Of a stretch of DNA of 64,000 nucleotides, positions 1,651-64,000 are shown one piece after another (position 1 is the first letter of the stretch; the number at the start of each line of letters is the position of its first letter). Under the pieces are notes generated by a model. The model had not been told where the DNA came from. It made no database searches and was given only the letters and a program-made list of their open reading frames with translations. The stretch comes from Sulfurovaceae bacterium (GTDB taxonomy: Bacteria; Campylobacterota; Campylobacteria; Campylobacterales; Sulfurovaceae). The translations under genes were made by a program, and so were the position numbers. The stretch is taken from assembly GCA_028714675.1 (NCBI GenBank), contig JAQTLV010000002.1, positions 292,008 through 356,007 of the forward strand, given 5' to 3'.

Positions 1651-2337
1651 TCAATCGTTATTTTCAAAAATAGATGAGCCTATGCGTACTAAGTTTGAAC
1701 CACATTTGATAGCAAGTTCATAGTCTCCACTCATACCCATAGAGCAAATATTGGCTCCATTCTTTTGAAGTTTTTCATATATTTTATAAGTTGTCTCAAA
1801 ACTATTTTGAATTTTTTTGACATCATCACTATGTGCACCAATGGACATTATACCTTCTAAATTTATATGCGGACACTCTTCTTTAATTTGCAAGTATATT
1901 TCTGTGGAAACTTCTGGATTAACACCGCTTTTTGTATCTTCTTTTGCACTATTTACTTGAAGTAAGCAAGACAGTGATTGTTGTTTATTTGCAAGTTTTG
2001 CTTCTAGCTCTTTTGCTAATTCAAAACTATCAAGTGCTTGAAAAAGTGAAGGTTTTATCTCTAAAAGTTTATTAATTTTATTTTTTTGTAAAGTTCCTAT
2101 CATATGCCACTCGATCGGTAAATCTTTGAGTTCTAAAGACCTTTGAGCAAGTTGTTGCACATGATTTTCACCAAAAGCTCTTTGTCCAAGAGAATACAGA
2201 GTTTTTATATTTTCTATCGTAGTATATTTTCCAACAGCCACTATTTGAACTATATGATGCTCATTTAGAGCAAGTCTTGCTTGTTCAATTTTCCAAATTA
2301 CATTATCAAGATTTTTTCTTAGTAATTCTCTGTCCAT
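1651..2337 (-). CDS. YggS/PLPBP family pyridoxal-phosphate homeostasis protein
   Basis: Single-domain alanine-racemase-fold protein of about 228 residues that carries PLP and buffers the cellular B6 pool without known catalytic activity. Family marks are IVAVGKYTT with the PLP-binding lysine, GQRAFGENHVQQL, EWHMIGTLQKNK, SIGAHSDD and CSMGMSGDYELAIKCGS near the C-terminus. ATG at 2337 is preferred; a TTG at 2349 would overlap rseP by ten bases. The gene follows rseP with two bases between, at the end of the long leftward run. The usual family serine in VSK is glycine here (VGK), a mild variation. Confidence 0.9.
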   Translation of the reverse strand: MDRELLRKNLDNVIWKIEQARLALNEHHIVQIVAVGKYTTIENIKTLYSLGQRAFGENHVQQLAQRSLELKDLPIEWHMIGTLQKNKINKLLEIKPSLFQALDSFELAKELEAKLANKQQSLSCLLQVNSAKEDTKSGVNPEVSTEIYLQIKEECPHINLEGIMSIGAHSDDVKKIQNSFETTYKIYEKLQKNGANICSMGMSGDYELAIKCGSNLVRIGSSIFENND

Positions 2338-21028: not shown

Positions 21029-21376
21029 ATGAAGCAGATGCCAAAATGCCCAAAATGTGGTAGTGAATATACATACGAGGATGGCAATCTTTATATTTGC
21101 CCTGAGTGTGCCTTTGAGTGGGGTAAAGAAGAGAATAGTGAAGAAGCCCAAACAGGTTTGGTTGTAAAAGATGCTAACGGTAATATCTTGCAAGATGGTG
21201 ATACTGTTACTGTTATAAAAGATTTAAAGGTCAAAGGAAGTAGTGACGGAATCAAGGTAGGTACCAAGATTAAAGGTATCCGCCTTGTTGAAGGTAATGA
21301 TGGACACAATATCGACTGTAAAGTACCTGGTGTTGGTGCCATCAAGCTCAAACAAGAATTTGTAAAAAAGGCATAA
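21029..21376 (+). CDS. yjdM: YjdM (PhnA-type) zinc-ribbon protein
   Basis: 115 residues. N-terminal zinc ribbon [21 protein letters not shown], then the typical core [27 protein letters not shown] and IKGIRLVEG with C-terminal [13 protein letters not shown]. Widely conserved, formerly called PhnA although it does not hydrolyse phosphonoacetate; role unknown. Full length. Confidence 0.95.
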
Positions 21377-39076: not shown

Positions 39077-40138
39077 ATGATAAATAAAGACGATTATAAA
39101 AATAAAGTAGCGTTGAATTTGTGGGCTGATGATGAATATAGGAAGTTTTTTTATAATTTTACAATAGAAAAAAAGAGATATAGGGGGTTAATATATTGTA
39201 CCCCTCCAGGATGGGCGAAAAGAGATAGAATAGCTTATGCTATCCGTGAGCTTGACGCCATAAGAGAAAAAAAGAAAGAGAGAATAGACGATAGCATTTC
39301 CGTAGATGCTGCAGTGGATCTGCATTTTAGTGTTTTAAAAATAACACCATTCAACAAAGCTCTTAAAAGCCACTACGAAAGATATGTAAAAAAGTTCGTT
39401 GGAAATAAAAAAATAGTAGATTTACGGCCCATACACATCAAAAAATCAATTCAATCTCAATACGAACAAGGACTCAAAGATAGGACAGTTAAACAAACTC
39501 TTGAGTTATTAAACCCAGTTTGCAAAATGGCCATAGATAATAGAGTGATGGTTTATAATCCTTGTGATAGCGTCAAGGTGAAGCTGCCAAAAACTAAAAA
39601 AATTGTTGTTAATGCCAAAGATAGATTAAAAGAAATACTTGAAGTCATAGTTGATGAGTTTAAAGATGAGCCTTATTACCTAGCTTTCTACCTATTTGCA
39701 GTTCAAGGTAGGCGTAAAAGTGAAATATTAAAACTTAGATGGGAAGATATGGGAGAGGATTATTACTTGCTGCGGACTACGAAAAATACTGAGACTCAAA
39801 AGCACTATTTACCGCCTTTTATCGCAAACATAATCGGTAAAATACCAAAATTCAATGAGTGGATCTTTGCTGCCAAAAATGGCCATTGGCAAAATGTAGA
39901 GAAAACTACAAATAGAATAAAGAAAAGAGTTGATGGCTTCACACTTCACTATCTACGAAATGTCATCTCATCAGCAATGGGAGAGGACGGAATGGCTACT
40001 ACACACTTAAGCGGTGCGTTAGGACATGCAAACACCCACACGATAGACGCATATTTGTCACTTAATTATCTTCAAGGTTCTCGTCTCGCGTGGGATGTTG
40101 TTGAGACTGTACTCGATGTTGATCAAGCCAAGTCTTGA
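39077..40138 (+). CDS. int: Tyrosine-recombinase integrase
   Basis: 353 residues. SAM-like core-binding domain (about 75-165) then catalytic domain: R212 in QGRRKSEIL, H291 and R294 in HYLRN, H317 in GHANTHT and nucleophile Y326 in DAYLSL. The ATG follows no visible Shine-Dalgarno site. Points away from the attachment scar. Its 3' end overlaps the convergent excisionase gene by 77 bases. Confidence 0.95.
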   Translation: MINKDDYKNKVALNLWADDEYRKFFYNFTIEKKRYRGLIYCTPPGWAKRDRIAYAIRELDAIREKKKERIDDSISVDAAVDLHFSVLKITPFNKALKSHYERYVKKFVGNKKIVDLRPIHIKKSIQSQYEQGLKDRTVKQTLELLNPVCKMAIDNRVMVYNPCDSVKVKLPKTKKIVVNAKDRLKEILEVIVDEFKDEPYYLAFYLFAVQGRRKSEILKLRWEDMGEDYYLLRTTKNTETQKHYLPPFIANIIGKIPKFNEWIFAAKNGHWQNVEKTTNRIKKRVDGFTLHYLRNVISSAMGEDGMATTHLSGALGHANTHTIDAYLSLNYLQGSRLAWDVVETVLDVDQAKS

Positions 40139-59274: not shown

Positions 59275-59862
59275 ATGAAAGTGATAATGATTGAAAGCCT
59301 TTCTGGCGATGATATCTATGAGATAGGCAAAGAGTACAATATTTCAGAGTCTGATGCTATCCGATGGGTAGCAGCAGGTATTGCAAAGCCTAAAAATAAA
59401 GATGATTATGAGCGTGCCATAGCTAAAGCAGAAATCATCAAGGCTGAACAAGAAGAAAAGCAGGCACAAATCATAGCAATTGAAAAAAAGGAAGAGTTGA
59501 TAAACGAAGCAGATACTTTGCTAGAAAATATACTAGCAATTGTTGCCACTTTGAATAGTAATGATCCTGAGTTTAAAGATAGATTTTTAGAGGACTTCCA
59601 TGAAAAATGGATAGATACATTCCCAGAAGATGACGCAGAAGCCAAAGCTGCTAAAGAAAAAGCAGACGCAGAAGCCAAAGCTGCTAAAGAAAAAGCAGAC
59701 GCAGAAGCCAAAGCTGCTAAAGAAAAAGCAGACGCAGAAGCCAAAGCTGCTAAAGAAAAAGCAGACGCAGAAGCCAAAGATGCTAAAGAAAAAGCAGACG
59801 CAGAAGCCAAAGCTGCTGTAGGAGTCCAGGATGAAAACAAAACTGATCCAGCTACTAAATAA
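59275..59862 (+). CDS. Phage head protein with an 11-residue tandem repeat
   Basis: 195 residues. The first 45 residues (MIESLSGDDIYEIGKEYNI, DAIRWVAAGIAKPK) resemble small head proteins next to the capsid gene. The last third is an 11-residue repeat AEAKAAKEKAD, five full units and a partial, predicted as a long helix or coiled coil. Possibly a head decoration or scaffolding-like protein. Overlaps the following connector gene by 32 bases. Confidence 0.7.
   Translation: MKVIMIESLSGDDIYEIGKEYNISESDAIRWVAAGIAKPKNKDDYERAIAKAEIIKAEQEEKQAQIIAIEKKEELINEADTLLENILAIVATLNSNDPEFKDRFLEDFHEKWIDTFPEDDAEAKAAKEKADAEAKAAKEKADAEAKAAKEKADAEAKAAKEKADAEAKDAKEKADAEAKAAVGVQDENKTDPATK
59635..59817 (+). repeat. 33-bp tandem repeat within the head-protein gene
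   Basis: Units start at 59,635, 59,668, 59,701, 59,734 and 59,767, with a partial sixth at 59,800-59,817. The first four units are identical base for base; the fifth has one change (GCT to GAT). Near identity points to recent slippage or expansion. The period is in frame, so the protein varies only in length. Confidence 0.95.
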
Positions 59863-61545: not shown

Positions 61546-62010
61546 ATGGCATCAACAGAAGAAACCAATTATAAAGGAACGGTCGTAGAAGTAGCAAAAA
61601 ACGGAACGACTACATGGGACAAATTCGTATGTAATGAAAACGCTATTGAGATAGACTTTGGCACTGATACAACATCTTCTAAAATATGTCTTGAGACTGG
61701 AGATGAAATAGTTGGTGCTGGATCAACTACATACGGTGAGCAAGAGATAGAGTATGTATGGACGCAGGCATTGACAAATGCAGCCGATACAACTATCCAA
61801 AATGCAAAAATAGCTACAGCAATTGCTGATAAAAAAGTGAATCTTAGAATCACAATGAACAACAAGACAGGAGTTGAAGTTAAAGGAACTATATACATCA
61901 TCCCTTTCATTGTGACAGGATACAAACATTTAGGAGCTAAAGATGGTGTATGGACGACAAAAGCAAAAGTCAAACAAATAGGCGTTCCAGTAGAAACACC
62001 TGCAGAATAA
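61546..62010 (+). CDS. Tail tube protein
   Basis: 154 residues, ATG right after the terminator stop. WDKFVCNENAIEIDFGTDTTSSKICLE and EGTI-like beta strands, TYGEQEIEYVWTQAL, fit the TP901-1-type/gpV major tail tube. Located just before the tape-measure chaperones. Confidence 0.85.
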   Translation: MASTEETNYKGTVVEVAKNGTTTWDKFVCNENAIEIDFGTDTTSSKICLETGDEIVGAGSTTYGEQEIEYVWTQALTNAADTTIQNAKIATAIADKKVNLRITMNNKTGVEVKGTIYIIPFIVTGYKHLGAKDGVWTTKAKVKQIGVPVETPAE

Positions 62011-62074: not shown

Positions 62075-62470
62075 ATGGCACAAAAAACAATGATAACAAA
62101 AGAAGAGCTGTTTAGCAAGTTTAAAAATGAAGAAAAAACGCTCCATGTTGAAGCATGGGAGGCAGATGTCAAAATAAGACGACTTACTATCAAAGAAGCC
62201 GACGAGGTATCTGCTCTGATGCTTGGTGAACTTACCAATGAAAAGTTTGCCAATATACAAAACAATGAGATGACATTAAGTGCTGACAGCTTTAGCCAGT
62301 CACAGTACCTAACTGTCAGTCATGCACTTGTAGATCCAAAGATGACAAGTGAAGAATTAGGGGCACTCGCAGGTAATTCCGCTAAGGCTGGCGTACTAGA
62401 AATATACTCTGCCATTCAAGAGTGGGATAAGCCAAAAAAGTTAAAGGACGAGAAAACCTCTTTAGAATAG
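62075..62470 (+). CDS. Tail assembly chaperone G
   Basis: 131 residues, start after AAAGGA. VEAWEADVKIRRLTIKEADEVSALM and the C-terminal AIQEWDKPKKL lead to a run of As. Gives the short G form, and by -1 frameshift at A AAA AAG (62,434-62,440) the long G-T form. Binds the tape measure during tail assembly. Confidence 0.85.
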   Translation: MAQKTMITKEELFSKFKNEEKTLHVEAWEADVKIRRLTIKEADEVSALMLGELTNEKFANIQNNEMTLSADSFSQSQYLTVSHALVDPKMTSEELGALAGNSAKAGVLEIYSAIQEWDKPKKLKDEKTSLE

Positions 62471-62727
62471 CAGGGATATTAGGCAAAACGGTGCATTGGC
62501 TCGAAAATAATATGAGTCAAAGCGAACTACTGGAATGGGGAGAGTATCTCTCAACTGTTCCAGATAAGAACGAAATACAGATGGCAATGTTGCTTTCAAT
62601 AGCAAACAGCTTTATAGGCGGCAAGCGTAGTTTTGATGATTTTATGATCACCAAAACCAATCAAGCAAATAAAAGAGACATATCCACAGCGTCAGCTGCA
62701 GATATAAACAAACTAGCAGGAGTTTAA
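62431..62727 (+). CDS. Tail assembly chaperone T, reached by -1 frameshift
   Basis: The -1 frame is open from 62,431 without any good start. It runs RIAGILGKTVHWLENNMSQSELLEWGEYL and continues to the tape measure start; the string is typical of phage T proteins. A GTG at 62,491 has no ribosome site and lies inside the conserved part, so expression as a G-T fusion is likely. Confidence 0.75.
   Translation, partial: AKKVKGRENLFRIAGILGKTVHWLENNMSQSELLEWGEYLSTVPDKNEIQMAMLLSIANSFIGGKRSFDDFMITKTNQANKRDISTASAADINKLAGV
62434..62440 (+). promoter_or_regulatory. Slippery heptamer A AAA AAG
   Basis: In the frame of G the codons are CCA AAA AAG, giving A AAA AAG, the most efficient known bacterial -1 site. 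The shift would continue as VKGRENLFRIAG. A weak stem (AAAGG with CCT-x-TTT, 62,443-62,463) lies downstream as a possible stimulator. Confidence 0.75.
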
Positions 62728-62730
62728 AAT

Positions 62731-64000
62731 ATGGCAAGTGTTGGAACGGTAGTAATCGAAGTTGATGCTAATGTTGCAAAGCTTGTAGAGGGCATGAAAC
62801 AGGCAAAAAGCCAAGTTTCAGCCTTGCAAAAAAACTTTAATACTGCAAAAAGAGATATAGCAGATTTTGCAAAAGCAGTTGTAGGTATATATGCCTTAAA
62901 ACAAGGGCTTGATGTAGCTAAAGCAGCAGCTATTAGTTTTGTAAATATAGCTTCTGATTTTGAACAGATGAAAATAGGACTTGCTTCACTTATAGCAGTT
63001 AATAGTTCCAATGTAACATCTTTGGGCAAGAGCATAACAGAAACAGAAAAATATGCTTTGGCTCAAGGAAGAGCTGCTGAAGCAGTAAATTTACTCCGTA
63101 GAGCAAATATAGATACTCCAGCAACACTTAATGAGCTAGTAGCAGGATTTCAAGCAACACTTGGTCCTGCAATGCATTTAAATTTTACTATAGAACAAAC
63201 TGTTAAATATACTACATTGATGACTCAAGCAGCAGCAGCTATGAGAGTACCAATGAATCAATTGAGTCAGGAGATGAGAAGCGTTCTTGCTGCTAATATA
63301 GATAATAACTCAATAATTGCAAAAACACTAGGAATTACAAATGAGCAAATAAAAATGCACATAAAGCTTGGTGATACTTATGATTTTCTAACTAAAAAAT
63401 TAGAAGGTTTTGCTGCATCTGGTGAAGATATGTCAAAAAGTCAAGAAGGCATAATATCTAATATGCAAGATAGTTGGCAAGGATTTCAATTAGGAGTAAT
63501 GGATAGTGGATTATTTGACTATATAAAAGCTACAGAATTAACTATAAGCCAAGAACTTACTAAAGCTTTTTTAGATGCAGATCAAGGTGTGAAAATTTTT
63601 TCAACCAGTGCTATAAGTGGATTTGAAGGAATAATCAATGCTATCGGATTTACTTATGATTCTATCACAGGTATTCAGTTGGCGTGGGAATTTGTCAAAA
63701 CAACATTTAATGGAGTTGTTGCATTTATAGTTGGCGGTATAAATTATTTCATAAAAGCTTGGGACTGGGCAGGCGTTAATTTGCAAAATACATTTAAAAT
63801 AATCGTTGAGACCATTGGTAATATGTGGAATGGAATGATAAATTTTATGATTGATGGTTTAAATAAACTTGCATCAGGTGCTATATTTGGGGGATTAGGT
63901 GGAGCTCTTGAGCTAATAGGTCAAAAAAATCCGTTTAAACTTATAAATGTACATTTGGGAGAATTTAACTCAGGCATTAAAACAGCTAAAATGTCCACAA
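62731..64000 (+). CDS. Tape measure protein (partial, runs off the window)
   Basis: 423 codons visible with no stop. N-terminal helical coil (AKLVEGMKQAKSQVSALQKNF), then SDFEQMKIGLASLI, RRANIDTPATLNELVAGFQATLG and SMNQLSQEM-like strings of the TMP N-terminal domain, and hydrophobic segments near residues 320-400. Sets tail length. Starts four bases after the T stop. Confidence 0.93.
   Translation, partial: MASVGTVVIEVDANVAKLVEGMKQAKSQVSALQKNFNTAKRDIADFAKAVVGIYALKQGLDVAKAAAISFVNIASDFEQMKIGLASLIAVNSSNVTSLGKSITETEKYALAQGRAAEAVNLLRRANIDTPATLNELVAGFQATLGPAMHLNFTIEQTVKYTTLMTQAAAAMRVPMNQLSQEMRSVLAANIDNNSIIAKTLGITNEQIKMHIKLGDTYDFLTKKLEGFAASGEDMSKSQEGIISNMQDSWQGFQLGVMDSGLFDYIKATELTISQELTKAFLDADQGVKIFSTSAISGFEGIINAIGFTYDSITGIQLAWEFVKTTFNGVVAFIVGGINYFIKAWDWAGVNLQNTFKIIVETIGNMWNGMINFMIDGLNKLASGAIFGGLGGALELIGQKNPFKLINVHLGEFNSGIKTAKMST

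Follow-up and report, generated by a model that had tools for sequence, protein, structure and literature searches.

A probable lambda-type G/GT tail assembly chaperone pair, with T predicted to be reached by -1 frameshifting, in a Sulfurovaceae prophage

The slip site of phage lambda, where a -1 shift late in G leads into the T frame, is G GGA AAG. In that phage the first part of T lacks a start codon, T belongs to the Phage_tail_T family and the tape measure gene comes next. The products, G and GT, serve as chaperones in tail assembly (Levin 1993; Xu 2004, 2013, 2014; cited in PMC5009743) and occur at a G to GT molar ratio of 30:1; the G part binds the tape measure, and the tail subunit is bound by the T part (PMC5009743). 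G-T frameshifting is said to be shared widely by long-tailed phages (PMC5009743), and in an HK97-like cluster it was measured at 6-7% (PMC3711429). In Escherichia coli, where a single tRNA-Lys decodes both AAA and AAG, the heptamer A_AAA_AAG ranks with the sites most prone to shifting (PMC5009743); the E. coli dnaX gene shifts at this heptamer with the help of an upstream Shine-Dalgarno element and a 3' hairpin.

Here we describe a locus from a Sulfurovaceae bacterium, contained in a stretch of 64,000 nt with a GC content of 33% (contig JAQTLV010000002.1, assembly GCA_028714675.1; hereafter, the window). With a probability of about 95%, we read it from its sequence as a prophage-borne pair of lambda-type G/GT tail assembly chaperones, T being reached by a minority of ribosomes through a -1 slip at A AAA AAG. 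The reading frames, the conserved slip site, the selection on T before any start codon, the family membership of the proteins and the tRNA set of the host are the basis of this reading.

Organization of the G-T region

Two overlapping open reading frames, the second in the -1 frame, lie between the genes for a probable major tail protein and the tape measure protein (Table 1), giving the order major tail - G - T - tape measure, in which the major tail assignment itself is weak. The bases immediately upstream of G are AAAAAAGGATAAAAA. Around the heptamer the frame of G reads GAT AAG CCA AAA AAG TTA AAG, and after a -1 slip the following codons would be GTT AAA GGA (V K G), with ...WDKPKK -> VKGRENLF... 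as the predicted joint between the two proteins. A previous sequence-only reading had proposed a programmed frameshift spanning 62434-62727, coordinates that are correct from the first base of the heptamer to the last base of the T stop codon, and had the -1 frame opening three bases ahead of the heptamer, as it does directly after an in-frame TAA. It had also placed A AAA AAG exactly at the end of G in the right phase; the phase is as described, whereas the heptamer is followed by nine further codons of G (LKDEKTSLE) before its stop.

Table 1. Positions in the window of the G-T pair, its slip site and the flanking tail genes
Feature	Position	Strand	Remarks
Probable major tail protein (lambda V position)	61546-62010	+	Weak phrog_158 match (E=0.032) and position
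G, predicted tail assembly chaperone	62075-62470	+	131 aa, 0 frame, stop included; ATG 62075, TAG 62468-62470
TAA in -1 frame, closing the T frame upstream	62428-62430	+
T, -1 open frame	62431-62727	+	Stop included (TAA 62725-62727); predicted to be reached by frameshift
Slippery heptamer A AAA AAG	62434-62440	+	In the frame of G; X XXY YYZ phase
GTG, first in-frame start within T	62491-62493	+
ATG, further in-frame start within T	62512	+
Tail tape measure protein	62731-64000	+	Continues past the window to G000:C2:358253; phrog_10093, E=4e-16

That the -1 frame encodes a typical T protein, as had been suggested, was borne out by the matches to phrog_337 (tail protein), which were obtained with the window sequence (E=6.6e-12) and with 15 of 15 family members. 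All 15 members also matched Pfam Phage_tail_T (best 3.8e-15); the window T gave 0.0094 and, taken alone, stayed under the family cut-off (16.8 vs 25.9 bits). The G protein is strongly diverged from that of lambda, as a Pfam search with the window G gave no match. It showed a weak similarity to phrog_344, annotated as a tail assembly chaperone (E=0.0012), a family matched by 10 of 15 members with a best value of 2.2e-28. A profile of G matched no chain among the PDB sequences. The AlphaFold model of G (mean pLDDT 76) had as its best solved match in Foldseek the HK97 tail assembly chaperone 2OB9 (prob 0.99, E=0.042, TM 0.46/0.54), with 14% identity over the structural match, a similarity that is supportive rather than conclusive as evidence for the identity of G. 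Family profiles and the structural model indicate that G has a tail assembly chaperone domain, the statistical support from the window alone being modest.

The neighbouring genes encode a terminase, a portal protein, a ClpP-like protease, an HK97-type capsid, a neck protein, a tail terminator and the tape measure protein, the portal, protease and capsid being of the HK97 type. The tape measure protein would have approximately 1170 aa in full (open frame 3-2354 in locus L114). The prophage apparently begins with an integrase-like ORF at 39077, recognized by eye, and continues past the tail genes almost to the contig end (G000:C2:362746). The ORF that directly follows the capsid gene (59275-59862) repeats a KADAEAKAAKE-like unit about five times in tandem.

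Conservation of the slip site among relatives

Relatives of T were found in other Campylobacterota genomes, in phages of Campylobacter, Moraxella and Psychrobacter, and in IMG/VR contigs. The closest one (L003/L030, 63% identical) belongs to Sulfurovaceae bacterium isolate STA_1, a metagenome-assembled genome of the same genus, in agreement with the Campylobacterota origin assigned from the sequence alone. The IMG/VR relatives were identified by a pattern search from a two-sequence alignment, the broad T alignment being too diverse for that search; neither T nor G used as a single-protein query gave a match in IMG/VR, and a tblastn search of phages with G was likewise negative. Two matches in Meiothermus (L032 and L033) were false, as no G-T pair is present there, and were excluded from the resulting set of 46 distinct G-T sequences, which includes the window.

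Within the G/T overlap, 44 of these 46 sequences had a correctly phased XXXYYYZ heptamer; many of the loci are related to one another and do not represent 44 independent events. The heptamer varied between groups (AAAAAAG, AAAAAAC, GGGAAAG, GGGAAAC, CCCAAAG and GGGAAAA), while its place and phase were constant, and it was conserved even though the relatives are only 16-45% identical to the window in G and 29-59% in T. The two exceptions (L008 and L011; reverse strand) are of the Campylobacter type and carry GCCAAAG and ACCAAAG (N CCA AAG) where close relatives have CCCAAAG; at these sites only the A-site tRNA, tRNA-Lys, can re-pair well, and their group has a strong hairpin after the site. One further locus (L010, ~1758-1817, minus strand) retains the slip site and a full T, but most of its G is gone, with only 20 G codons open, and it looks like a prophage remnant.

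This conservation bears on the possibility of a chance heptamer. In the AT-rich window AAAAAAG occurs 91 times, against 49 expected from dinucleotide shuffles, and with the window ORFs taken as background, A AAA AAG was found in the slippery phase 10 times in 19,073 codons, that is, in about 0.5% of 10-codon overlaps. A single in-phase copy taken alone is therefore only suggestive; its retention in phase in 44 of the 46 sequences rules out chance. A second in-phase A AAA AAG lies near the end of the ORF at 21029-21376, where the frame entered stops after 35 codons; inspection of the frame beyond that heptamer gave no sign of a frameshift gene.

Homopolymer sites are error-prone and the genome is a draft of 18 contigs, conditions under which a single gene could appear split at the A6 run, whether through an error in sequencing or through a frameshifting mutation. 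The same split, in the same phase, in 45 other distinct sequences, complete phage genomes included, already refutes this explanation, to which we attach a negligible probability. The A6G run might also cause RNA polymerase to slip, so that the fusion would be translated from a mixed mRNA pool, and transcriptional slippage is a known alternative to ribosomal frameshifting (PMC5009743). Against this, the GGGAAAG, GGGAAAC, CCCAAAG and N CCA AAG sites of the relatives are not long homopolymers, and the phase of a ribosomal slip is always kept among them. Six As are, moreover, short for polymerase slippage, and we consider this origin of the fusion highly improbable.

Selection on T ahead of its start codons

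The sequence-only reading had described T as having no start of its own, and this was confirmed for the N-terminal part of the protein but not for the rest, where a GTG and an ATG are in frame (Table 1). Their presence raises the possibility that T is a separate protein made from GTG 62491, or from ATG 62512, with no frameshift, which is how GenBank entries of the Campylobacter CJIE4 phages present their T; depositors gave T a gene of its own in KF751795, MZ047271 and NC_023734. We therefore consider the codons that such a protein would leave out. When 13 relatives, the window included, were aligned from the slip site, 17 T codons preceded the position of the window's GTG, and the pN/pS of these codons was 0.335, compared with 1.06 and 1.69 in the other two frames, which contained 31 and 15 stops over the same stretch. 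In the ten relatives whose G stops at the slip site, so that these codons are free of overlap with G, the value was 0.334. These ratios indicate that purifying selection acts at the protein level on this 17-codon stretch of T.

Ten of the 13 relatives had no ATG, GTG or TTG within the 17 codons and eight had none before codon 20; the first T start varied from codon 9 to codon 33 after the slip, and a GTG at the position of 62491 was shared only by the window and its nearest relative (L030). Initiation at GTG 62491 or ATG 62512 would remove conserved N-terminal residues, and in CJIE4 the open T frame runs for 37 codons before its first ATG, which already falls within the conserved domain. An internal start would, in addition, leave the conserved slip site unexplained. 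An independently initiated T thus seems very unlikely, if slightly less so than transcriptional slippage. Protein-level selection on codons that no start reaches is indirect evidence, best accounted for by entry into T from G, and translation of T as a G-T fusion is the best explanation of these sequence data.

The Campylobacter prophages CJIE4 and PC10 illustrate the consequences for annotation. Their T is 39% identical to that of the window and has the same overlap and phase; in contrast to the window, the slip site is CCCAAAG (GCCAAAG or ACCAAAG in close relatives) with a strong downstream hairpin, and the records give separate genes and no frameshift. In both records (L014 and L015, 4106-4321 in each) T is a truncated hypothetical protein, begun at an internal ATG that follows 37 codons of the open frame, and the conserved N-terminal part is missing from it. 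The comparison suggests that the shortened, separate T of the Campylobacter phage records should be corrected.

Context of the slip site and predicted expression of GT

In the host genome 37 tRNA matches were detected, of which 36 were typed by ARAGORN, the 37th being a partial match at a contig end. The typed genes include two tRNA-Lys(UUU) and no tRNA-Lys(CUU), which, by analogy, is the tRNA-Lys configuration under which E. coli shows the strongest slippage at A AAA AAG. The stimulators of dnaX, a different gene, are weak or absent in the window: Shine-Dalgarno-like pairing upstream of the site is weak (-4.4 kcal/mol), and a search for a stable hairpin of the dnaX type after the heptamer found no strong one within 60 nt downstream (z +1.44; +0.59 for 50 nt). 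Hairpins do follow the site elsewhere, in CJIE4 (z -3.6), in the Moraxella Mcat phages (z -2.8) and in several other relatives; in the Sulfurovaceae-type set, RNAalifold predicted no shared downstream structure and covariation was equal to that of shuffles. As neither a strong downstream hairpin nor a shared stem was detected, frameshifting in the window probably depends mainly on the heptamer.

On the upstream side, the -1 frame is closed by a stop at a mean distance of 2.4 codons from the slip site in 23 representatives, whereas 6.8 codons would be expected at random positions of G and 4.4-5.2 with the local codon order shuffled; none of 1000 codon-order shuffles reached the observed value. 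As the sequences are related, this is only suggestive: the close stop could discard ribosomes that slipped early, or it could simply reflect common ancestry. It is doubtful, though conceivable, that such a stop, together with the A-site-only re-pairing at GCCAAAG/ACCAAAG before a strong hairpin in some Campylobacter relatives, gives the cassette features undescribed in the literature consulted.

The gene order, the membership of both protein families, the conserved in-phase site and the purifying selection on T before a usable start together uphold the parallel with the lambda G/GT design that had been drawn from the sequence; the window differs from lambda in its A AAA AAG heptamer. In the proposed mechanism most ribosomes would read G through to its stop, while in a minority, perhaps a few percent, the two lysine tRNAs on AAA AAG would slip by -1 to pair anew with AAA AAA, and translation would run on in T, producing a fusion of approximately 217 aa. 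If the parallel with lambda extends to function, the tape measure protein would be coated by G and the major tail protein recruited through the T part of GT, and neither G nor GT would be in the virion.

Given the wide conservation stated for G-T frameshifting in long-tailed phages (PMC5009743), the finding is an expected one and no surprise, a clear but ordinary example of a widespread mechanism. It would add Sulfurovaceae prophages to the range of a textbook phage frameshift, and it indicates that related phages of Campylobacter, Moraxella and Psychrobacter carry the same design, although public records show G and T as separate and often hypothetical proteins. Its practical value lies in better annotation and in slip sites and stimulators that vary naturally and can be compared.
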